The position numbers and the translations under genes were made by a program. Positions 16,145 through 33,689 of a stretch of 64,000 bases of DNA are shown here, piece by piece; the stretch's first letter is position 1, and every line of letters starts with the position of its first letter. The stretch is from Agelas oroides (Eukaryota; Porifera; Demospongiae; Agelasida; Agelasidae): the NCBI GenBank assembly GCA_949130485.1, contig OX422204.1, positions 4,526,015-4,590,014 on the forward strand. The letters are read 5' to 3'. The notes beneath the pieces are model-generated. The model ran no database searches. It was not told the origin of the DNA and saw nothing but the letters and a program-made list of their open reading frames with translations.

Positions 16145-16965
16145 CCAGTCTGCTATCCATCTCAACCCGACCTCTCTGATGTTGATAAATTCAGCTATCT
16201 GCGATCCCTCCTTGACAGCACAGCCTCGATGCTATCGCTGGGCTTACCCTCTCTTCTGCCAACTATCAGCAAGCCATCGAGTTCCTTTGTAAGCGGTTTG
16301 GAAACAACCAAGTCATCATCTCCAACCACATGGACACTCTCATGAACATGGATGCTGTCTCCTCTGACCGTCACCTCAGGGACCTGTGTCGGCTCTACGA
16401 CAAAACTGAATCACATGTACACAGTCTGAAGTCGCTGGGGATTGAAGCTACGTCTTACGGAGCTCTACTCTCACCTGTACTCCTGGCCAAGTTGCCCCTG
16501 GAATTGAGACTTATTGTCAGTAGGAAGGTATCTGACTCTCACCTAGATATGGATGCACTACTTACTACTTTTGAGGAGGAATTGACAGCCCGAGAGAGAG
16601 CGAATCCTCGGTCTACCAGACGAAGTCAAGAAAGGGTGCATCACACTTCCTCTACCCTGTTTTCTGGTTCCCGAGATTCGAATGCCGAGTGTTCCTATTG
16701 TCAGCAATCTCATTTGCCTACAAACTGCTCTTCTGTGACTGATGTTGCTGTCTGTAAGCAGATCCTCAAGACCAGTGGCCGGTGCTTCAATTGTCTCCGC
16801 CGAAATCATGTTTCTCGTGATTGCAAGTCCTCCTCTAGATGCCAGAAGTGCAAGAGGAAACACCACACTTCCATCTGTGATGCTAATTGCAGCCAACCTC
16901 GTCACACTTCCATCCGTGATTCTAGTTCCAGCCAACCTAAGAGCTTGGCACACCCAATTGGATCT
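16145..16965 (+). pseudogene. BEL/Pao gag fragment with three zinc knuckles
   Basis: The structural protein of a BEL/Pao retroelement. The frame changes once near 16165 and again near 16230 before the long open stretch from 16330. Three Cys/His knuckle-like motifs follow each other: CSYCQQSHLPTNC (about 16690), CFNCLRRNHVSRDC (about 16783) and CQKCKRKHHTSIC (about 16840). The N-terminus is missing and the C-terminal part is cut by the insertion that begins near 16968. Confidence 0.85.
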
Positions 16966-16967
16966 GG

Positions 16968-17806
16968 GCTGGACCCAGGGGGTAGGTACAAAACCTGGAC
17001 TCTGGACTCTGGACTGGACCATGGACTGGACTATGGACTGGATTATGGACTCGATTTTGGACTTAATTTTAGATTGGAAAGCAGAATCTACTAACCTCAC
17101 GTTTCCAGGCCTTCTAACCGTCCACTTTTTGATTACTTGCAGTCTTGTGCCAAAGGTTGTGATTATACAGATTCCTATGGATGTTTTCAGTATATATGTC
17201 AGTGTTTAAAGTCTAGACAATGCATTAAGATAGAGCAAGAAGGCTGAGGTGTTGGGTAGTGAGTGTATCTGCTCAGGCAATGTGATTGTACAGCCAGTCT
17301 ACCCCAAGCTCACATTCCCATCACCATTTGCAAATTATAGGCAGTGTACTCGACAGCTGAAGTCACCGAGGCTTCCAGTCTGGCTGTTGCAAGGCTTGCT
17401 TCTACTCCTCTGCCATGAGTCCAGTAGCTCAGTGGTAAGAGCATCTGACTAGAGTATTCACAAGGTCCCAGGTTCGACTCCCAGCTGGATCTCTTTCCTT
17501 TCCCACTAAAGCTTACATTAGGCGTTATAATGCAACTCCTTGCCAACTAGCTGAGCTGGGAGGCTGTATGAGCAGAGTGATGGCTTAAACCAACCAGCCA
17601 GTCTTGCTAAAAGCTGCACAAATATCCGTTCCTACTGTTATGCCAATCCCCTGCTTATTGGGCAATCCAGCATTCATAGTCTTTTTTAGAGCTAGAACAC
17701 TATCGAGTCCAAAATCGAGTCCAAAATCGAGTCAATCCAGTCCATAGTCCAGTCCATGGTTCAGTCCAGAGTCCAGAGTCCAGGTTTTGTACCTACCCGG
17801 ACCCAG
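16968..17806. mobile_element. ~840 bp insertion in BEL with tandem-repeat inverted termini
   Basis: The left arm runs from ggacccagggggtaggtac into cctggactctggactctgg, atggactggactatgg and tcgattttgg (to about 17075). The right arm (about 17700-17806) is the reverse complement of the same series. Gag reads up to the left edge and BEL sequence resumes after the right edge, so this is an insertion. A tRNA-like segment lies inside. No transposase was found. Confidence 0.7.
17421..17492 (+). repeat. tRNA-like sequence (probable SINE head or tRNA pseudogene)
   Basis: tccagtagctcagtggtaag supplies a good A box with a paired D arm (GCTC..GAGC), and ggttcgactcc supplies a B box. The outer stem pairs at about six of seven positions. 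The anticodon stem does not pair, so this is not a working tRNA. It sits inside the insertion in BEL. Confidence 0.55.
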
Positions 17807-17859
17807 GAGCGGCCCCGTATCAACCGAGTACAACTTCTAGCAACCTCTGTTCTGACAAC

Positions 17860-19990
17860 TTACGGGCCGTGTTCCTCCAGACAGCTCGCGCAGTAATCCA
17901 CAATCCAAGCAATTCTCACATCTCCCTTGAAGTCCACCTCCTCCTCGAGCGTTCTGGGAATTGGAAGCCCTAGGAATCCGAGACGAAGAGAGGACGCTCT
18001 ATGATGACTTCACTGGAGTTGTTAAGTTTGAGAATGGGAGGTACAAGGTCCCCCTACCATGGAGAGAATTCCATGATCCGTTGCCAGACAACTACCAGCT
18101 GAGCGTAAACAGACTCCAAGGCTTGCTTCGCCGGCTCAAACAAGATCCAGCTATCCTCAAGGAATATGATGCCATAATCCAAGACCAGCTGAGAAAGGGA
18201 ATCATTGAAGCCGTACCAGCAGGCAAAACTCCTCCAAAGTCCACACACTATTTACCACACCATGCCATTGTGCGTCAGGACAAGTCTACAATGAAGGTGC
18301 GTGTAGTGTACGCCAAGATTGCCAACAGTCCATGCCTCAATGACTGTCTTCTGAAGGGTCCGAAATTCGATCAACTCATCTTCGACCTTTTGGTACGATT
18401 TCGATCGCACAAGATAGCTCTCACCGCAGATTTGGAGAAGGTATTTCTGATGGTGTCTGTGGATGAAGCCGACAGTGATGTCTTGCAATTCATCTGGGTG
18501 GAGGATACCTCGAAGGATCCATCTGACCTGAAAGTTTACTGATTTACCCGAGTTGTGTTTGGGGTCTCATCAAGTCCCTTCCTCCTCAACGCCACCATAC
18601 GTTTCCACTTAGAGAAGTACCTGGAGACAAGTGAAGGCTTGGTTCAGCATCTGCTCTGTTCCACATACGTTGATGACATCATATCTGGTGGACCCGCTGA
18701 AGATGAAGCTTTCAATTTATACACGGCATCCAAGAAGATCTTCTGTGAGGGAGGATTCAACCTGAGAAAGTTTCTGACCAACTCCAAACATCTTCAAGAG
18801 AGAATTGACCTCCAAGAGAGTCCAAAACCCAACAGTTCACCACTGCAGGATGAGCCAACCTTCTCAGAGACCACTCCCGGAGTCTCCCAATCCCCAGAAA
18901 TGGAAGAACACAAGGTCTTGGGAGTACCATGGAACCCAGAGTCAGACAAACCCATCTTTGGGGTCACTGACCTTGCTCGAGTTGCTCTCGACCTACACCC
19001 AACTAAACGAAATCTTGTCAGTCTTATCAGCAAGTTCTATGATCCTCTTGGATTTCTCTCTCCAGTAATCATCAGATTTAAGATCCTCTTTCAGAAGCTC
19101 TGTCAGTGCAAGTCTGACTGGGATGATGTCATCCCTGAAGGGCTGGTAGAAGAATGGAGGGGCTTGATCTCAGATCTCAACGAAGCTCAGCCTATATCTC
19201 TCCCGAGAAGCTACCTCTATGATATTACCGACCACATAACTTCAATTACACTCTGTGGGTTCTGCGATGCATCTATCAAGGCCTTCGCTGCTGTAGTCTA
19301 TCTCCTTCTAAGAACCAAAACCCACAGTGTGGTCAGATTCGTTGCTGCCAAGACGAGAGTAGCACCCTTACAATCTCAAACGATCCCTCGACTGGGATTG
19401 TTGTCCACCTTTCTGAAGCTTGTGGTCTCTATACACAACAGTCTTCAACCTCAGATGGCTCCTCTGGATGTAAGGTGTTACACTGATTCACTAGTTGCAC
19501 TCTACTGGATCCATGGCAAGGATAAGGAGTGGAAACCCTTTGTCCAGAATCGAGTAAGAGAGATATGACGCAATGTTCATCCCGATCTTTGGAACCACTG
19601 CCCAGGGAAAACCAATCCTGCTGACCTGCCCTCTAGGGGGCTCAGTATACTGGAGCTATCCGTCAGTCAGTTGTGGCGAGCGGGTCCTGAGTGGCTAAGT
19701 CTGGACTCCCCAATCTCTTCTGACATCGAACCTACACCTATGCCAGAGCTGTGCTTGCCAGAGTTAAAGACCAGTAGCAAATTGTCTCACAATCTGTTGG
19801 CCACCCAGAGGAGGCCCACTGTTGGAGATCTGATGTCCTGTGAAGACTTCAGCTCCCTTCAAAGGTTACTCAGAGTCACTGCATACGTCCTGAGAGCAGT
19901 GAACCGCTTCAAGGCCAAGCGGAAGTCTGACTCAATTCTTCCAATCACACTGACCCCTCAAGCTTTGGATCACCCATGCACAGAATGAGC
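17860..19990 (+). pseudogene. BEL/Pao pol: protease remnant, reverse transcriptase, RNase H region
   Basis: A short piece typical of the start of the BEL protease region (QTARAVIHNP near 17880) is followed within about 70 bases by the pre-RT motif FWELEALGI, so most of the protease has been deleted. Reverse transcriptase follows: YLPHHAIVRQ, RVVYA, LTADLEKVF, FGVSSSPFLL and the catalytic YVDD at 18666-18677. The RNase H/connection part includes FCDAS, RCYTDSLVALYW and PADLPSRG. In-frame stops interrupt at 18540-18542 and 19566-19568. The element cannot make its own enzymes. Confidence 0.9.
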
Positions 19991-20985
19991 TAGTCCTCCA
20001 GAAGGATTTTGATGCTCTGAGACGTCTATTTGGCCTATTCCTCGATGACAAAGGATTGTGGAGATGTGGCGGCCAGCTACGGAACACCGACATTCCAAGC
20101 ATCCAGTCCTGCTGCCCAGAAAGCACTCCTTAACTACCCTCGTAGCTCGCAATGCTCATCAACATGTGAGTCACAATGGGGTGAAAGAGACCCTTACAGA
20201 AGTCCGACGAAGGTACTGGGTCGTGAGAGGCCGGAGCTTCATCCGAGCTATAATACACAGATGTACAACCTGCAAGAAACATGAAGGAGCTCCATTCAAT
20301 GGTCCTCCACCTCTGCCAGAATTTAGAGTCAAGGAAGACCCAGCTTTCACCTATACGGGTGTGGATTTTGCAGCCCCCCTGTCTGTTCGAAAGGGATCTT
20401 CCAGTGGCAGCACTAAGGTGTGGATCTGTTTATTCACTTGCTTAGTCACTCGAGCCATCCATTTGGACATTGTACCCAATCTATCCACCATGACGTTCAT
20501 TCGGTGTCTGAAGCAATTCACAGCGAGACGAGGCCTACCCCGCAAGTTTCTGTCCGATAATGGAAAGACGTTCAAGGCTGCTGCAAAATTCCTTAGTGTC
20601 GTTTTCAAAGACGAGACTATTCAAGAACACCTGGTTAACCAAGGAAGCCAGTGGATTTTCAATGTGCATCTTGTGGTTGGCTGAAGACTCCTGAACCTTC
20701 CTGATTACTTGGGACATGTCTGCGATCCCGGAGATGAAGACTTTGAGGTTAACGCTAGCCAACTGACAAAGCGGGTGAAGCATCTTGCCAGCGTTCTGAA
20801 CCACTTTTGGAGAAGGTGGAGGTCAGAGTACCTAAACGAGCTCAGAGAGAGCTACCGCTACTCAGCGAAGAGGACTCTGAGTCGCCCTTCTGCGGAGATG
20901 TTGTTATCGATGCTCTACCACGTGGGCTCTGGAAACTTGGACGGATCCAAGAGATCCTCTCCAGTCGCGATGGGCTGAAACATAA
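19990..20985 (+). pseudogene. BEL/Pao integrase and C-terminal domain, internally deleted
   Basis: Two compensating frameshifts lie between 19980 and 20080. The zinc-binding H-H-C-C module is visible at about 20155-20290 (HQHVSHNG ... CTTCKKHEG). The first catalytic Asp is in YTGVDFAAPL and the second in LSDNGKTF. Right after QWIFN, near 20660, the sequence jumps to RLLNLPDYLGH (about 20685), so the segment that carries the catalytic Glu is missing. The C-terminal WRRWRSEYLNELRE motif follows at about 20812, with a frame change near 20890. Confidence 0.85.
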
Positions 20986-22225: not shown

Positions 22226-25168
22226 TTACAAATACCAATCAATTCTGTGGTCACTGGTTTCTGTTTTGTACTTTTTTGGCAGCCACAGTATTTGCAATGT
22301 CTGATTGTGTTTGAGATTGCTAATCAGCTGGTGAACCCCCTCTTCCATGACTGAGTCATCATACAGGTTGAGTTCCTCCAGTGATGTATTGTGCTGTAAC
22401 ATGACTGATATTGAGGAGGCTCCCTCCACACCAATTGGGTTGTGCTTAAGGTTCAGACGTTTCAGAGTTGAGTTCTTGCAGAGCGCACCTGCTAGTTCAC
22501 TAGCCCCTTGGCCATTGATGTGGCAGTCATCTAACCACAACCATGTCATTGTGCGGTGCTCTCTAAGTACTGATGCTAAGCTGACCACATTTGCAGTGTT
22601 AAAGTAAGAGTTTGAAATGTTCAGTTCCGTCAAAGAACTGTTGTCACTGAGTCCAGTGATAATGCTGATTATACACTCTGAGGACAAGTTGTTCTGGTCA
22701 ATGCGAAGGGATTGAAGTGAGTGACTGGATTTTAGTAGTTCACATAGGGCCACACAATCTGGCACCCGTATCCCAGTGTTTTGCAGCCGCAGTCGTTCCA
22801 TCCCACTGCCACAGAGTGCCTTGATCACCTCCACAGCACCACCACTCCCTATTGGGTTCTCATCCAACCTAAGCTTCCCCAACCTAGACATTGATGGCAC
22901 TACTTCTGCCAGCAAGTCACATGCACTCCCATCCAGTTGATTGTTAAACAGCTCCAGCTGTATCATATTCTGTAGTATGTGTGGAGGAATTCTAACAAAT
23001 GACTGCATACTTTTGGAGGTGATGTCATTGCTACTGAAGTAGGCATAAGAGAAGTGGCCTCTGCATTCAGTTCCCACAGGTGCAGCACATCCCTGGCAAA
23101 ACAATTCAAACTTTTCATCATCAAGTGAAGATCTACTAAAGTCCAGTTTCCAAGGGCAGTTGGAATGAGAGATGGCATAGCCTGTCACGTAGTAGTCCAG
23201 GGGAGTCCAGGAGTAGTACGGCCAGACAACCATCTCATCTAAGCCCAGAGTTTTGATAGTCACTGAAACATCTTTTGCTTCAAAAATAAAGTGAAAGTAG
23301 ATAAGGTTTGTGTTGTCACTCAACCCCCTAGTAATATCAGGAGTTATGTTTGCTAACCTTGTTAGTCCAGCCACAAACCTCATAGTCATTTTGAAAGTGC
23401 TACTATCAAGAAGTTCTTGAACCAGTCTAGTCTGTTTGTGTGCAGGAAGTTGTGAGATGTGGATGGCAGCTAAGTATTCCTGCAGTGTCAAGTGGATGAA
23501 ATGGTAGGAGGGGGCTCTGCCTTCAGTGTACAGTTGAGGGACTTCCTGCAACAGGCCGAGTGGAGCAAACTCAGACGGAAGGTGGGCTACAGAGAAAACC
23601 AACTGTTGCCTGTTCAGTATACCCTCATAGGCCATTCTGCACAGGCCCTGGAATTGATTGTGCACATCTGCAGGGAGGTCATTGAAGGTGGTTACCTTTA
23701 TCCGCTGTTTGTACTGCCCTGGGTGTGTTGAGAGGTAATTTACCAGGGTTTTGAGGGTAAAGGTAGTATACAGTTCAGTCATAGTGGTAGGAGGGGATAA
23801 CTCAACGTGATGGTTCCATGTAAACACTTCTGCTGACATCTTTGCTGTGATGGGTGTGTACATGGCTGCCTTGATAACAGGATTAGATGAGAGATAGTCA
23901 GTAAATTTGGCAGCAAACAAACTAGGATCTGCTGCAGTTTTGGCTTTGCTGATGTATTGAGTAATCTGGTCATTTGTGAATGTCAGGATCTCCACATGCT
24001 GGGCAATTTGATTTTCACAGTCCTGTCTGAGGTGCTGACTGGCCCAGGGCCTGCTTGTGACAAACTTGGTTGCAAGGGGTAGGATTCTATCGTGGATAAG
24101 GTCAAGGAACACAGAGGCCTTCTCTCGCAGCTCATGATCCAATTCGTCCCATGCCTCCAGCCAGATGGCCACTCCCTGGCCCTGATGGCTGGTGACCTGC
24201 TGGACCACAGCCTCCTGGAGCTCTGAGTCTGGGTGATAGAAGAGGTCCAAGAGGCTCTTGGCCACATTCAGGGTGTAGTCCCGCAGTGGGAGGAGGAGGA
24301 GCAAGGAACAGTCCTGTAGAACCTCACCCCTGCCCCACTTTCTGCAGAACTCCCAGCTGAAGGTTGTTTTGCCCACACCAGGGGCTCCTTCAATCAGAAT
24401 CAGCTTCTGTTGGTGATGAATTGAGAGTTTGCCAACTTCTTCAAATTTGATTGGAGACTTTTTGTAAAATTCAGTCCCTAGGGAACCGACATCATCCATA
24501 TCCCCTCGTAGGTACCGTCTTGTGAACTCATCTACACTGACTTTCTCTTTCTCAATTTTGGCTAGTTTGAAGGGGAGCGGTTTCTGGGGTAGTGGACTTG
24601 AGCTGAGAGTTTGGGGAGACTTCTCAGATATGTACAGCTCCCTGAGGAAAGTGCTATATTTGAATGTTGCAGAGCTGTACATGTCGTGTCCAACAGGAGT
24701 AGTCATCTGTACAGGTAACGACAAGAGAGGGACAGGTCTGGATGGGGTGACTTGGGAAAGTTGTGAGTACGCAGGATGGGTAGCACCAGGCATGGTAGTT
24801 GTAGCTGCTACATATGGAGTCACAGTTGGTAGTGGTGATGAAAGATGGGTGGAATCACCTTGTGTTGAACAGTACTTGTGTTCCAAGTCCGCAGCCAGCT
24901 TTACTTCACCAACAATATTTAGGGCATTGATAATGTTGGTCCAGGTAGGGTGTGAGTATTTCAGCCATCTTGTTAGAGTTTCTTTAAAACAGTCAGTGGG
25001 GTCACTGTACTGCTTGTTGATGGCATCCAGTGTGCAAATGCTCACTCCTAGCTGCACACCAATATCTTTCCACTTTCCCCGCACATTGTTCAACTCTTTC
25101 ATTACAACACGCAAGTCAGCAACACTTAACAGAGGCCCTGGGTTGGTCTGTATGTCTCCACTCCACAT
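22226..25168 (-). CDS. NLR-type receptor: 2A-like peptide, Death-fold, NACHT, LRRs
   Basis: A 980-residue, single-exon intracellular sensor of the NLR class, which binds nucleotide through NACHT and oligomerises to signal. Residues 4-12 read GDIQTNPGP, a 2A-like ribosome-skipping motif (usual consensus D-V/I-E-x-N-P-G-P, here with Gln for Glu). Residues about 16-98 look like a Death-fold domain, with a Ser/Thr/Pro-rich linker to about 200. NACHT follows: Walker A GAPGVGKTT (261-269), Walker B region IWLEAWDEL (335-343, Glu where the usual LDGxDE has Asp), sensor TSRPW (371-375) and the HLTLQEYLAA box (559-568). About seven leucine-rich repeats run from 730 to 970. ATG at 25166-25168 is the only available start, but the frame stays open upstream to a stop near 25315 without another ATG, and full 2A activity usually needs residues upstream of GD. 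The true start may therefore be in an upstream exon. The gene is otherwise intact. Confidence 0.9.
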   Translation of the reverse strand: MWSGDIQTNPGPLLSVADLRVVMKELNNVRGKWKDIGVQLGVSICTLDAINKQYSDPTDCFKETLTRWLKYSHPTWTNIINALNIVGEVKLAADLEHKYCSTQGDSTHLSSPLPTVTPYVAATTTMPGATHPAYSQLSQVTPSRPVPLLSLPVQMTTPVGHDMYSSATFKYSTFLRELYISEKSPQTLSSSPLPQKPLPFKLAKIEKEKVSVDEFTRRYLRGDMDDVGSLGTEFYKKSPIKFEEVGKLSIHHQQKLILIEGAPGVGKTTFSWEFCRKWGRGEVLQDCSLLLLLPLRDYTLNVAKSLLDLFYHPDSELQEAVVQQVTSHQGQGVAIWLEAWDELDHELREKASVFLDLIHDRILPLATKFVTSRPWASQHLRQDCENQIAQHVEILTFTNDQITQYISKAKTAADPSLFAAKFTDYLSSNPVIKAAMYTPITAKMSAEVFTWNHHVELSPPTTMTELYTTFTLKTLVNYLSTHPGQYKQRIKVTTFNDLPADVHNQFQGLCRMAYEGILNRQQLVFSVAHLPSEFAPLGLLQEVPQLYTEGRAPSYHFIHLTLQEYLAAIHISQLPAHKQTRLVQELLDSSTFKMTMRFVAGLTRLANITPDITRGLSDNTNLIYFHFIFEAKDVSVTIKTLGLDEMVVWPYYSWTPLDYYVTGYAISHSNCPWKLDFSRSSLDDEKFELFCQGCAAPVGTECRGHFSYAYFSSNDITSKSMQSFVRIPPHILQNMIQLELFNNQLDGSACDLLAEVVPSMSRLGKLRLDENPIGSGGAVEVIKALCGSGMERLRLQNTGIRVPDCVALCELLKSSHSLQSLRIDQNNLSSECIISIITGLSDNSSLTELNISNSYFNTANVVSLASVLREHRTMTWLWLDDCHINGQGASELAGALCKNSTLKRLNLKHNPIGVEGASSISVMLQHNTSLEELNLYDDSVMEEGVHQLISNLKHNQTLQILWLPKKYKTETSDHRIDWYL

Positions 25169-25316
25169 GACACAACGTACTACAGAACCGAGAACTGTGT
25201 ACGAATTGTTTGTTCTCAGGTCGTCACAGGGCCGTCTGCAAAGGGGTATATACTTGGCTGGATGCTAACCTCACGGTACACTGATTTACCGTGATCGACT
25301 GCTGGCAATAGTGAAA
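25169..25316 (-). other. In-frame extension upstream of the NLR start
   Basis: Reading the minus strand, the NLR frame remains open for about 48 codons before ATG and ends at a TGA near 25315. It contains no ATG. A pyrimidine-rich tract followed by a cag lies near its far end (gtttcactattgccag), so a spliced upstream exon could feed into this frame. The residues just before the start are mostly hydrophobic, as in the upstream part of known 2A peptides. Confidence 0.5.
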
Positions 25317-25335
25317 CTCAGGCATGAACCACACC

Positions 25336-26198
25336 ATAGATAATAGAGCCAAATGGATTGGCAACGGCAAAAAAATTTACGGCCAAACCCGGGCAAAACG
25401 CAGATGACGTCACGTCCTATCCTTGGTACGGCACACCCATTGAAGTTACGGTGAGCAGGCATGTCAGGAAATGCTTACTAACAGGCTTATCTCCTGTGTA
25501 GGGTATTGTACGGTAGGTCCAAGCGTATCTATCGATTATTGCACAGTATCTGCATGCTCTGGTAAATAATTGTGCTATGCTTGGCTGTGAATTAATTGTT
25601 ATGCAACGTAGAAACGCTAAAATAATAGTTTTGTAGTTTTTTCTGGAAACTAAACAAGGCTATCCCATGTTGCAAGCGGTCATAACGTGTAAGCAATAGC
25701 CAAGAATGCAATAGAATGGCGTATTTATCTGTAATACAACACACAGTTTCGTGCGAGGCCTTGAAGGGTGTAAATAATGTGAAAAGTCTTGTAGTTTTCT
25801 AGAAAGATCGGTGCACTAGGTTAGGTCAAGTCTGCTGGTACAGATTAGCAGTAGATTGGCAAGTGCAATGCTGACAAAACAAGGGGTCTGCAGCGATTGT
25901 GTGCACTTTTCCCTGGCCTTCTGCACAGGTGGCTACAGCAGTCTCAAAGAACACATCGATCTCTCCTGGTTGTCTCCAGGCCTACTGATAACTCCAAGGA
26001 CCGTTTCGCACTCCTCCTTAACAGCAGCAGTCTGCCAGGCACTACTTGACATCTGGGGAAGCAGAAAGCAGACATAACTGTCGCTCTCGTGCAGTCGGCG
26101 CTTACAGTCATTGCCGCGTTCGTCTGCATCACGTGACCGTAACGAGGATTGTACGTAAAATTATTGTCGTTGCCAACCATTTGGCTCTATTATCTATG
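25336..26198. mobile_element. 863 bp P-like non-autonomous element, 7 bp target duplication accacac
   Basis: Both ends begin catagataatagagccaaat and stay inverted for about 45 bases with few mismatches. Flanks accacac at 25329-25335 and 26199-26205 are identical. The terminal catagataatagag is shared with the element at 61015-62366, which also has a 7 bp duplication and a P-transposase-like remnant. A 73-codon frame at 25856-26077 is not recognised. The element lies about 170 bp upstream of the NLR start. Confidence 0.8.
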
Positions 26199-26206
26199 AC
26201 CACACC

Positions 26207-26747: not shown

Positions 26748-29368
26748 GGAAGATGGCCCAATATCCTGGAAAGTATTGCCAAATTCTCAAGATAACATCC
26801 AGGAATCTTATCAAGAATCACATACAGGAAATTCCAATGAAGCGAATTACGAATGGTCTTCTTGTTGAACTGATACGACACCAAAAATTGCAAAAGATGC
26901 CTGCCAAAACACTTCTGAAATGGCTGGAGCTACTTTATGGACAAAACTGGCCACAGTATCCACCTGCCGAACTTACTTTGTTAAAATCTCTCTCTGTTCT
27001 CTACCAGAAACATCACAGACTTGTTATTCACAGGGATTCTGAAAAGCTCAATGAGTTCTGCCTTTCTACTTACTGTCTACCTAAGCCTATGAAGGTTCCA
27101 GTAGAGCAAACTGCAACGCAAGAGTCTGCATTTAAAAAGACAAAGCGGCGTTTGTTGTTTCGCCGCCAGCAATATCAAACCTATCAAAACATTATCAGAG
27201 AACTAGCAAGAGAATTGCACTCAACCCAACAGGGTGCTATGCTACTAGAGGCAAGAGTAAGGACCCTAGAATCAAGGGTGCAAAGGGGTCACATGAGCAC
27301 AAGGAACATCCACAAACGTGAAAAACGAAAGGCGGCAATGCTTGCTAGGCAAAAGAAACAAATTGTAGCTTTTGCAAATGAAACTGAAAAACTTAAGGCT
27401 ACTCTAAAGAAAGAGCAGCAAACTCACAAAAGACAGGCAAAATCAGCAAAGACCACGCTTCATAACTACAGAAAAGCTAGCCAGAGAACACGACAGAAGT
27501 ACAAATCACGCTTACACCGGGTGAAAGTAAAACCAGCAACAGTAGCTCTGGAAACTTCTGATGACAGTGATGATCCCAGTGATGTTTTCAGTGATACTGT
27601 AGACAGAGTGAAGGTACTTGAAGTTAAGGTTGATGAACTTAGTGAAGCTTTGGAAGAGGTGAGATCGAAAAAGGTCCACACCATGGATGCAAGCCATTAC
27701 AATCACAAGATTAGGGAGTGTTGTATGAAACTTATGAGCCACAATGTTAGTATTCGAAATGTTGATGCTTGCGTTAGAGCTGTCCTTGATCTGGTTGAGC
27801 GTGAAGTAGACCAACTTCCAAAGAAGTCAACTGTTGCAAACATGATGGTGGAAGCACAATCATTAGCTCACCTTCAGCTGTCCGATGAACTTCCCAAACA
27901 AGCTACCAATACTCTTCATTCTGATGGAACGACCAAGTTTGGAGAGAAGTTTGGGGGGTTCCAAGTGACTACACAAGAGTCCTCTTACACACTGTGTCTT
28001 ACAGAAATGAAAGCTGGTGGTGCAAAGGACTTCAAGGAAGTGCTTGAGCAAGCTTTATCCAACATTGAAGCCACATGTTGTGCTGTTGGACATCCAGGAG
28101 ATCATCATGTTAGCAAAGCAAAGAAAATTTGGCCTCCTTGAAGAACACTATGTCTGATCGTCATGTTGTTGAAAAGAATTTCAATGAGCTTCTTGAAGCA
28201 TATAGAGCTGAGATTCTTCCAGATGTCATTGAAGGCTGGAATGACCTCACATCAAATCAACAAGCTTCACTTTCAAAGATGAACAATTTCTTTTGTGGTC
28301 TTCACTTCCTGGTAGCACTAGCTGATGCTGCAGCTGCCACTTTGCAACAGTGGGAATCCCTTCATTAGGATGAAGATGATTGTTCTTCTGGATCAGGAAC
28401 TATACGATTGATTCGTACTGCATGTAAAGCAGTACAGAAGCAGTGTTCACAGCAAGCTGGCTGCCATGTGATGTTTAGGACTTATCTCAAGACCCAGGGA
28501 GTTACAGAATTTCCAATTGCAAAGTTTGAAGGGAACAGATTCAATATTGTGTTTTACAATGCGGCTGGTATCTACTATCTTCGTCACCACCTTGTCAGAT
28601 ATCTGGAGGAAGTTCACCACACCCAGAATAAGCTATTACAAGCTGTGCTCCGTGATCTCAAACACCCCCTCTACTTAACAGGATGTCGTGCTCTGGGTAT
28701 AGTTCGTAAGTGCATTACCAGTCCACTGTGGAGAATTCTTGAGTCACCATTGAGTATGAGTGAGCTTGGACAGGAATATCAGAGAATGCGTACACAATTT
28801 CTTGACTGGTCAAATGATGCTTCTAACCTACTGGAAGGTAAAGGTCTTGAACAAGTTAATGATGAAGATAAGGTGTTTCACGAGCTAGTGCACGGTGGAG
28901 ATGACAGTTCACAGGTGTTAGAACTGCTTCAGATGTTGTGCAGATCATTTAGCCTCGTATCTGAGCGCTTGTTGGGCGACCATTTGCAAGAAGGTGTGTA
29001 CGATAAAACTCTTGCTGAAGACCTGGACAATGAAACTGCAACTGTTCCCAAGACAAATGCCCGCAGCGAACGTGACTTCGCTATACTGGATAGGTAAGAA
29101 ACTATGCATGTGCATCCCTAATATAATGTGGAAGTGGCATGCATATGGTAGAAAAGCCAGTTGCAAAATGTGAACTGTGCACATGAATATAATTATGTGG
29201 CAAACTTCTTTACAGGCTGAATTGAGAAGCCTAGCCACATAATTGTATTTATGTGCACAACTTTTTGGTTCACGTTTTGCAAGGTCAACGCAAAACTGTC
29301 TGCTGGACTACAAATGAGCCTAGGGTAGGTCCCCCCCCTCCCTGAAGGATCTGAAGACCAGTAATTAA

Positions 29369-32269: not shown

Positions 32270-33689
32270 ACCCTAGCAACCCACTACCACATCCATTATC
32301 ACCTCTACCTATTCCACTTCGTGTTACTCAGTGACGGTTGCAGAGCTGCCAGGTTACCTGGGCAGGCGACACGTGCGGTGGAGCCACTATATTACAGCTG
32401 AGTTTCTGTGCAATATAGTGACCAGAATTTTACCCGGGCTTGCCCGGGTCTGAAACTGCCTATGGTTTTACTCAAGTTCAAAAACTTGGTTGCTAAGCAA
32501 CATCCAACAAGTTACCATGCACTCACCAGCCTCCCTCTGACACTGTTTAACCCATACTATATTTTCTACAGGTTCTTGCACTGCATAGATAACCTGTGCT
32601 TTATCACCATCATTTGTCCTTGCAGTGCACTACAAAGAATAATTTACCATGAAGTCAACTACAAGTAGCAATATTATTTACATTATGAATGAATGTTTTT
32701 TTTTGTTTCATTTTATAAATAGATGAGTGATATAATGTGTGCACAAAAAAGGGGGTGTTCCCTGTCCATAGTACAAATTCCCAGGTCCTCACACAGCTTT
32801 GCGGAATTGAAACCCTGAAACATAATTTCACATCAGCAAAATAATCACAAAGCATTAACTTTTCTAAACAGAAAGGCAAGGACTTACTGCTCACTGCTTG
32901 GTGTGTGCATGAGATCATCCCTCGTCTGTGTGGTAAGTTGTCTGTTGTTATTCTCCTTGCTGTTTGCTTTGGTGCACCCATGCATAATCAATCTCTCCCT
33001 ATGTAACTCACATATGATCATGAGACTCTCCCCACTTTTCAATGCTGCAAGAGGCTAAAAAAAACAATGGGCAGGGGCTGGAAACAAGGCTACATGTATG
33101 CACATATAGCCTTGTTCTCAGATCACTTACAGAGGGAGAAGGCTGGTTGAATCTTACAATGTGATCCGTGGCACAGACATGAGCTAGATATCATCACATT
33201 GTCTATGCATAACCTAGCAAAGACTGATCTAGACTTTGTAGTAGCCATGAAGACAGGCAAAGTGCTAGCAGAGAGCCCGGGGCACATATCTGACGTTGCT
33301 ACGAAGGGGTAATTTACTGAGCAACATGCGTAAACTATTTAGCAGTGAGAATGTTTAGCTTGTTATAGAGAGGCACTTTGGAGTTGTAATGCCAACAGCC
33401 ACTCTTGAACAGTTAAGCTTCAAATTTAGAGGTAGGATCTGCATCTCTCCTGGAAGTTGTCTTGTTTAACTTAATTCGTTAACTGATTCTGCAAACTTTG
33501 TCAAAACCTCCGCTGTGTTGTGAACTGTGTGCTAAGATTCACCAGGTCTTCTCTTTCACTGTAAGTGAAAAAAAAATCTGCAGACAGGGAAGGCCTGGGA
33601 ATGAGGCTATGCACAAACACATTCCATACAGCTTTAGGACACATAATTGTAAGCCAAATCCAAGTGGTGGTCACTTGTATGTTGCCTCT
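32270..33689. other. Intergenic, no supported gene
   Basis: Contains a minus-strand frame at 32655-32981 and a plus-strand frame at 33498-33818, neither with a recognisable family. The second runs into dispersed repeat C and is doubtful. Fragments of the CCTTGTTCTCAG/GCCTCGTTCCCAG-type repeat occur near 33088-33150. Confidence 0.35.

Follow-up and report, generated by a model that had tools for sequence, protein, structure and literature searches.

A probable remnant of a leader-2A module at the start of a sponge Death-NACHT-LRR gene, many of whose relatives carry the module upstream

The window, by which we mean the whole 64,000-nt stretch of Agelas oroides DNA that was analysed, carries on its reverse strand an open reading frame for a 980-residue protein whose translated N-terminus is MWSGDIQTNPGPLLSVADL. 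The earlier note had placed a 2A-like motif at the start of this frame, before a Death domain, and both the translation and Pfam searches bear this out. The features of the gene are as follows.

22226..25168, minus strand: Death-NACHT-LRR open reading frame, single exon, 980 codons plus stop
25133..25168, minus strand: MWSGDIQTNPGP, a 2A-derived remnant that opens the frame; its Gln is position 14 in 2A numbering
24884..25114, minus strand: Death domain, residues 19-95 (Pfam, relative L061, FADD profile match, structure model)
23939..24403, minus strand: NACHT domain, residues 256-410 (Pfam)
22406..22477, minus strand: best LRR_6 match, residues 898-921, marking the LRR region (Pfam)

Pfam identified the NACHT domain with an E-value of 5.9e-16 and gave one LRR_6 match above its cut-off. 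The Death match (E 2.6e-4) scored 21.5 bits, slightly below the cut-off of 22.6; the Death domain of relative L061 scored 33.9 bits, which supports the Death fold of the window protein. Profile comparison of the window domain with the PDB returned FADD (E 1.6e-5), and its structure model (pLDDT 88.5) had FADD and Fas death domains as top PDB matches in Foldseek, with weak E-values (best 0.015, TM 0.67). As Death, NACHT and LRR domains are all present, the gene is classed as an NLR of the Death-NACHT-LRR type. No relatives of the whole protein were found in prokaryote genome contigs or in viral contigs. The pattern [DG][VI][EQ]xNPG matches the window once, at the start of this frame; NPGP is translated at three other places, in frames that measure 13, 29 and 41 codons from stop to stop.

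We searched the 259-Mb genome (141 contigs) with the pattern GD[VI][EQ]xNPGP and obtained 169 sites, compared with none for a reversed-pattern control and about 0.02 expected genome-wide from base composition. A site was counted as immune-linked when it had a leader (described below), or a match to a related NLR, Death or NACHT sequence within 8-12 kb downstream, a definition that may admit a few sites by proximity only. By these thresholds 82 of the 169 sites are linked and 87 are not; 68 sites in the genome follow one of two conserved leaders. The core has Glu at 161 of the 169 sites and at 81 of the 82 linked ones, all of them sites that had been found by the core pattern. Gln at position 14 occurs at the other eight, namely the window copy among the 82 linked sites and seven of the 87 others. 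Three Gln variants share the peptide GDVQPNPGP and nearly identical core DNA (L059 at C1:12985645, C1:19036226 and C12:3995835). They apparently belong to one element family, going by L059, the one that was read, and they hint that Gln is tolerated given a suitable upstream run. All five non-immune 2A loci that were scanned (L056-L060) matched a PHD finger (three scoring above the Pfam cut-off, two below it), with the 2A preceding the open reading frames. One of them (L057:1210-3024) also contains DUF6570, a domain that we take to be linked to Helitron-type elements, and the five loci look like mobile elements.

A protein search, in which the best candidates were scored, yielded at least 47 related NLR loci, one of them that of the window. 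A 2A site lies on the same strand within 12 kb upstream in 36 of the 47, and in none on the opposite strand; 33 loci have one site, three have two and 11 lack one, and no two of the 36 share their nearest site. Similarly, for 69 of 149 Death matches the 8 kb upstream contain a site on the same strand, and for none is there one on the opposite strand (the best 150 of 829 candidates were scored and the window's own was left out). Among Pfam NACHT matches (the best 105 of 314 candidates) only seven of 105 have a site within 12 kb, so the arrangement is a feature of certain NLR families and not universal. Five of the 11 site-less loci lie on contig C17 and two on C4, in families of 40-42% identity; the other four are closer relatives (three on C1, one on C21). 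Decay of a former 2A was considered for the three on C1 and rejected, as neither a leader nor a near-miss core was found in the 1.4-3.4 kb upstream of them. Leader-2A sites also form a cluster at C9:646744-5078052, where 14 have Death matches 1.6-7.7 kb downstream.

The earlier note had let its reading hang in part on the conservation of NPGP in paralogues, and had drawn a parallel with sea urchin NLR proteins. A 2A core is present upstream of 35 of the other 46 related NLR loci, so this check comes out in the note's favour. The parallel is an apt one. According to Roulston et al. (2016, PMC4981915), 2A-like sequences occur in 85 of 241 sea urchin NLRs; a 26-residue example gave about 80% skipping by a qualitative estimate, mutation of Leu-13 or Leu-14 reduced skipping, and when skipping was blocked the sequence sent a reporter to the exocytic pathway.

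In the relatives the 2A usually terminates a leader of about 130-165 codons that carries a Leu run, for example VVRVVVLLLLLMSGDIETNPGP. Among 30 leader frames that were fetched, 17 have a recognisable MP(I/L/S)(S/R) start, and the length from this start to the end of NPGP is 133-165 codons in 16 of them and 65 in one. At four of the five loci L050-L054 (the exception is L052) the frame opens with an MP-type ATG right behind a stop codon; shorter leader frames occur at L044, L046-L049, L055 and L018. The last ten residues upstream of the core include at least three consecutive Leu in all 30 frames and at least four in 27, and all 30 have Ser, Ala or Cys before GD, so that the relatives contain a Leu-rich hexapeptide. 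A GTRAG donor follows NPGP by one codon and one base at 24 of the 26 loci read, and the six introned Death exons that were inspected by eye re-enter the frame behind an acceptor of the form CAG or TAG. The hydrophobicity next to the 2A and the linkage to NLR genes hold in the relatives, yet the 2A mostly sits behind a long leader.

A query consisting of the leader without its Leu run or core (L034:1069-1452) gave 65 matches, three of which have an internal stop. An intact core lies behind 62 of the 65, at 61 distinct sites, and is in frame with the leader in 61 of these 62 despite a spacing that ranges from about 40 to 260 nt; the matches lacking a core are at C1:3098212, C10:8409674 and C21:6925522. 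A second type of leader was found on contig C3. It had no match in common with the first leader in either search, and each of its seven matches has an in-frame 2A with a Death match directly behind. At two loci (L064 and L065; C3:14118300-14119400 and C3:15625900-15627000) the second leader, the 2A and the Death domain form a single open frame. Summed pairwise dN/dS of the leaders was 0.41-0.61 in three groups (15 of the 17 aligned), indicating moderate constraint. In the core it was 0.10 or lower, with synonymous positions varying while the residues hold, a value biased by the choice of sites by their core. The leader had no Pfam match (L034 was scanned) and no relative in the PDB or in viral contigs, and its structure model was poor (pLDDT 47.6). 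From the open frame, the in-frame spacing and the dN/dS of 0.41-0.61 we infer that the leader is translated in the relatives. The modules, their linkage, frame and conservation are seen in the sequence, and skipping, targeting and splicing in these genes are putative. The leader-2A of the relatives looks like a maintained StopGo front end.

The window copy lacks the leader and Leu run of this module. In a tree its Death domain groups with those of L061, L031, L062 and L063 (98/97), and with the last three alone at 82/69. These four sister genes retain the leader, the Leu run and Glu, with the Death domain in the same open frame. DNA homology between the window and the sisters starts at 25167 (L031, L062), 25163 (L063) and 25162 (L061), placing the break no more than two codons ahead of SGD. 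The features upstream of this break are as follows.

25169..25264, minus strand: in-frame open stretch upstream of the ATG, 32 codons, no Met, without significant leader homology
25169..25331, minus strand: upstream DNA at the position of the relatives' leader and Leu run; no other genome match
25335..26198, no strand assigned: insertion with 22-nt perfect terminal inverted repeats, bounding the region upstream of the NLR

When the 163 bp upstream of the frame were searched against the genome they matched themselves alone, and comparison of 30 leader frames with the 64-kb window revealed no convincing leader; the single non-motif match at E <=0.05 was 13 residues of L046 at 33578-33616 (E 0.035). 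The L050 leader resembles the upstream peptide in an ungapped comparison (p 0.002, about 0.06 after 29 tests; one of 29 leaders), so the Leu run may have diverged rather than been replaced. The insertion is flanked by an 8-bp duplication, ACCACACC, at 25328-25335 and 26199-26206 (by eye); going by the length of this duplication, we take the insertion to be hAT-like. Elsewhere in the window, fragments of a Pao-type LTR retrotransposon (Peptidase_A17 and integrase matches, with weak ones of the zinc-knuckle gag-like kind) lie at 16330-20684 on the plus strand, and two open reading frames of 462 and 208 residues at 26753-29097, also on the plus strand, had no Pfam match at E 0.01.

In 2A (StopGo) sequences Glu14 is nearly invariant and stacks on rRNA, and upstream motifs, including a Leu-rich class, are needed (Li et al. 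2026, PMC12846837). The window octapeptide DIQTNPGP departs from the core (D/G/C/N)(V/I)ExNPGP by having Gln for Glu. The upstream hexapeptide is also missing: M-W-S-G is all that precedes the motif from the ATG, and the upstream frame would extend this to VVRCVMWSG. Hydropathy, averaged over the best 12 of the 20 residues that precede GD, was 1.47 in the window copy, as compared to 1.78-3.84 in 29 loci (L048, too short, was left out). The copy has no strong hydrophobic run, unlike the signal of the sea urchin NLR 2A. Since the hexapeptide, the hydrophobic stretch and a leader in the 64-kb window are all missing, the two-location switch that the earlier note proposed for this gene is unlikely, and with its upstream context gone the copy should yield one product.

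The remainder of the gene is altered as well. A mid-domain of about 240 residues separates Death from NACHT in 12 of 12 relatives covered from the 2A to the LRR region; it is conserved, has no Pfam match (L023:802-1548 and relatives) and is absent from the window copy, as is the intron that precedes it. Hence, the gene is intact in that its frame is open but not in its domain content, and its single exon is real but a derived state, the relatives having introns and the extra domain. A processed retrocopy was considered as the cause of the single exon and set aside; no poly-A was seen by eye in the 700 bp past the stop. As the sister genes already fuse the 2A and Death domain, one junction that removed the second intron together with the mid-domain may explain the single exon. 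The window NACHT domain is nearest to that of L003 (78% identity; the L061 NACHT is 68% identical) and the Death domain lies with the L061 group, so the gene may be a mosaic. Pairwise dN/dS was 0.29-0.37 for NACHT-LRR against four relatives and 0.35-0.37 for the Death domain against two; the frame therefore looks constrained, although such values are blind to timing relative to the loss of the leader. Taken together, the window copy looks like a derived, damaged member of the leader-2A family.

The probability that the NPGP of the window frame is a chance match is negligible. Its Gln does deviate from the consensus, but only about 5e-6 matches are expected per window and the surrounding DNA is homologous to the 2A-Death frames of the relatives. 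This homology, the 169-to-none control and the base-composition expectation rule out a chance origin, and the view that the motif is 2A-derived holds up. A different possibility, raised by the earlier note, is that the window 2A is weakly active, with Gln lowering skipping so as to give a tuned mixture of two products. The E14Q change does lower activity (to 56% or 26%, as cited in Li et al. 2026, PMC12846837), NPGP and D-I are retained, and Gln is also found at seven of the 87 non-immune sites, three of them with the near-identical core GDVQPNPGP. However, only four residues, none of them Leu, lie between the ATG and the octapeptide, and when characteristic upstream residues are changed, activity is nearly lost in almost every case (PMC12846837). 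Even an active copy would shed an 11-residue peptide without a strong hydrophobic stretch. The lowering effect of Gln is supported, the mixture in the window copy is not, and we consider weak activity unlikely.

Two further explanations were weighed. An unseen upstream exon could supply a leader and Leu run by splicing and so restore a full 2A. The 32 codons that are open upstream in frame, and an acceptor-like TTCTGTAG that was seen by eye close upstream of the ATG, would fit such an exon. Against it, apart from the L046 segment none of the 30 leader frames had a non-motif match in the window at E <=0.05, the leader, 2A and Death domain are one open frame in the four sister genes, and the break falls within the 2A rather than at any exon edge of the relatives; we regard this explanation as highly improbable. 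It is also conceivable that the NLR 2As are passive baggage of mobile elements and inactive in the receptors. That 87 of the 169 sites have no immune link, and that PHD fingers were matched at all five scanned non-immune sites, three above the Pfam cut-off, speaks in its favour. This is nonetheless quite unlikely, because an intact core is found behind 62 of 65 matches to the first leader and seven of seven to the second, and because core residues hold (dN/dS 0.10 or lower, although the sites were chosen by their core).

We conclude that the window motif is probably a genuine but eroded remnant of a leader-2A module widespread in this NLR family; the relatives are predicted to switch, and the window 2A to skip little or not at all. 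In the relatives one mRNA would encode the leader, the Leu-rich 2A and Death-NACHT-LRR. At SGDIExNPG/P the ribosome would mostly skip the Gly-Pro bond, freeing a leader of about 150 residues and leaving a cytosolic NLR whose first residue is Pro. If skipping failed, the hydrophobic leader would stay on and could tether the receptor or route it to membranes, as the shorter sea urchin NLR 2A does with reporters. It is by analogy with the sea urchin NLR 2A that we expect the relatives to skip and to give a leader, a cytosolic NLR and a membrane-linked minority. The window gene would have arisen from a sub-family with the 2A and Death domain in one exon. A change no more than two codons before SGD may have swapped the leader and Leu run for unrelated DNA, Glu14 would have become Gln, and the joining of the Death tail to NACHT would have deleted an intron and the mid-domain. 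The predicted product is one cytosolic protein with a 12-residue vestige.

A broader proposal is put forward tentatively, as one that may well prove wrong. Dozens of Death-NACHT-LRR receptors in several NLR families could carry, on an exon, a StopGo front end that selection maintains, and single genes such as the window's would drop out of this arrangement. The mRNA would be effectively bicistronic, giving a conserved leader of about 150 residues, a receptor in the cytosol and, as a minor product, a membrane-linked fusion, with two dissimilar leaders in use. If the module is active, the location of a large receptor family would be set by recoding during translation and not by splicing or proteolysis, and the leader would be a second product with a testable role. 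The window copy offers a natural broken example for comparison.

Odon and colleagues reportedly described, in 2013, 2A sequences in non-LTR retrotransposons. The NLR modules share the core with these, and the host genome itself has PHD-finger-like open reading frames with a 2A (L056-L060), but the NLR modules differ from the retrotransposon sequences in their link to immune genes and in having leaders of their own. According to Li et al. (2026, PMC12846837), cellular coding sequences very rarely contain StopGo. The relatives resemble Leu-rich motifs 2 and 6 of that study (LLLLSG-like, with D at position 12) in having a Leu run, S/A/C-G and D(V/I)ExNPGP, whereas the window copy differs from this class at the position 14 Glu and in the upstream hexapeptide. 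In domain order and expansion the genes are like the NLRD class (Death-NACHT-LRR) of the sponge Dysidea avara (PMC12909245); unlike what we find in the host NLRs, the main text of that report does not contain the terms "2A-like", "skipping" or "signal peptide".

Among the literature matches listed there was no report of a 2A in sponge NLRs, and the survey of Rao et al. (2025, Cell Rep 44:115822) may list some. The closest parallel is SpNLR2A of Strongylocentrotus purpuratus (PMC4981915), where, as here, a core and a hydrophobic run lie N-terminal of NLRs in many members of an expanded family. Skipping and a signal function were shown with reporters for SpNLR2A alone, the relatives described here being known from sequence. 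In addition, SpNLR2A is an N-terminal segment of 26 residues, whereas the relatives have a conserved leader, usually about 130-165 codons including the 2A, with an intron usually next; the window copy differs further in having Gln and in lacking the leader and hydrophobic run. An NLR-linked 2A was already known from the sea urchin; what is new, to our knowledge, is that the leader is long and exon-borne, that it is tightly coupled to the core, and that the arrangement reaches this scale in another genome.
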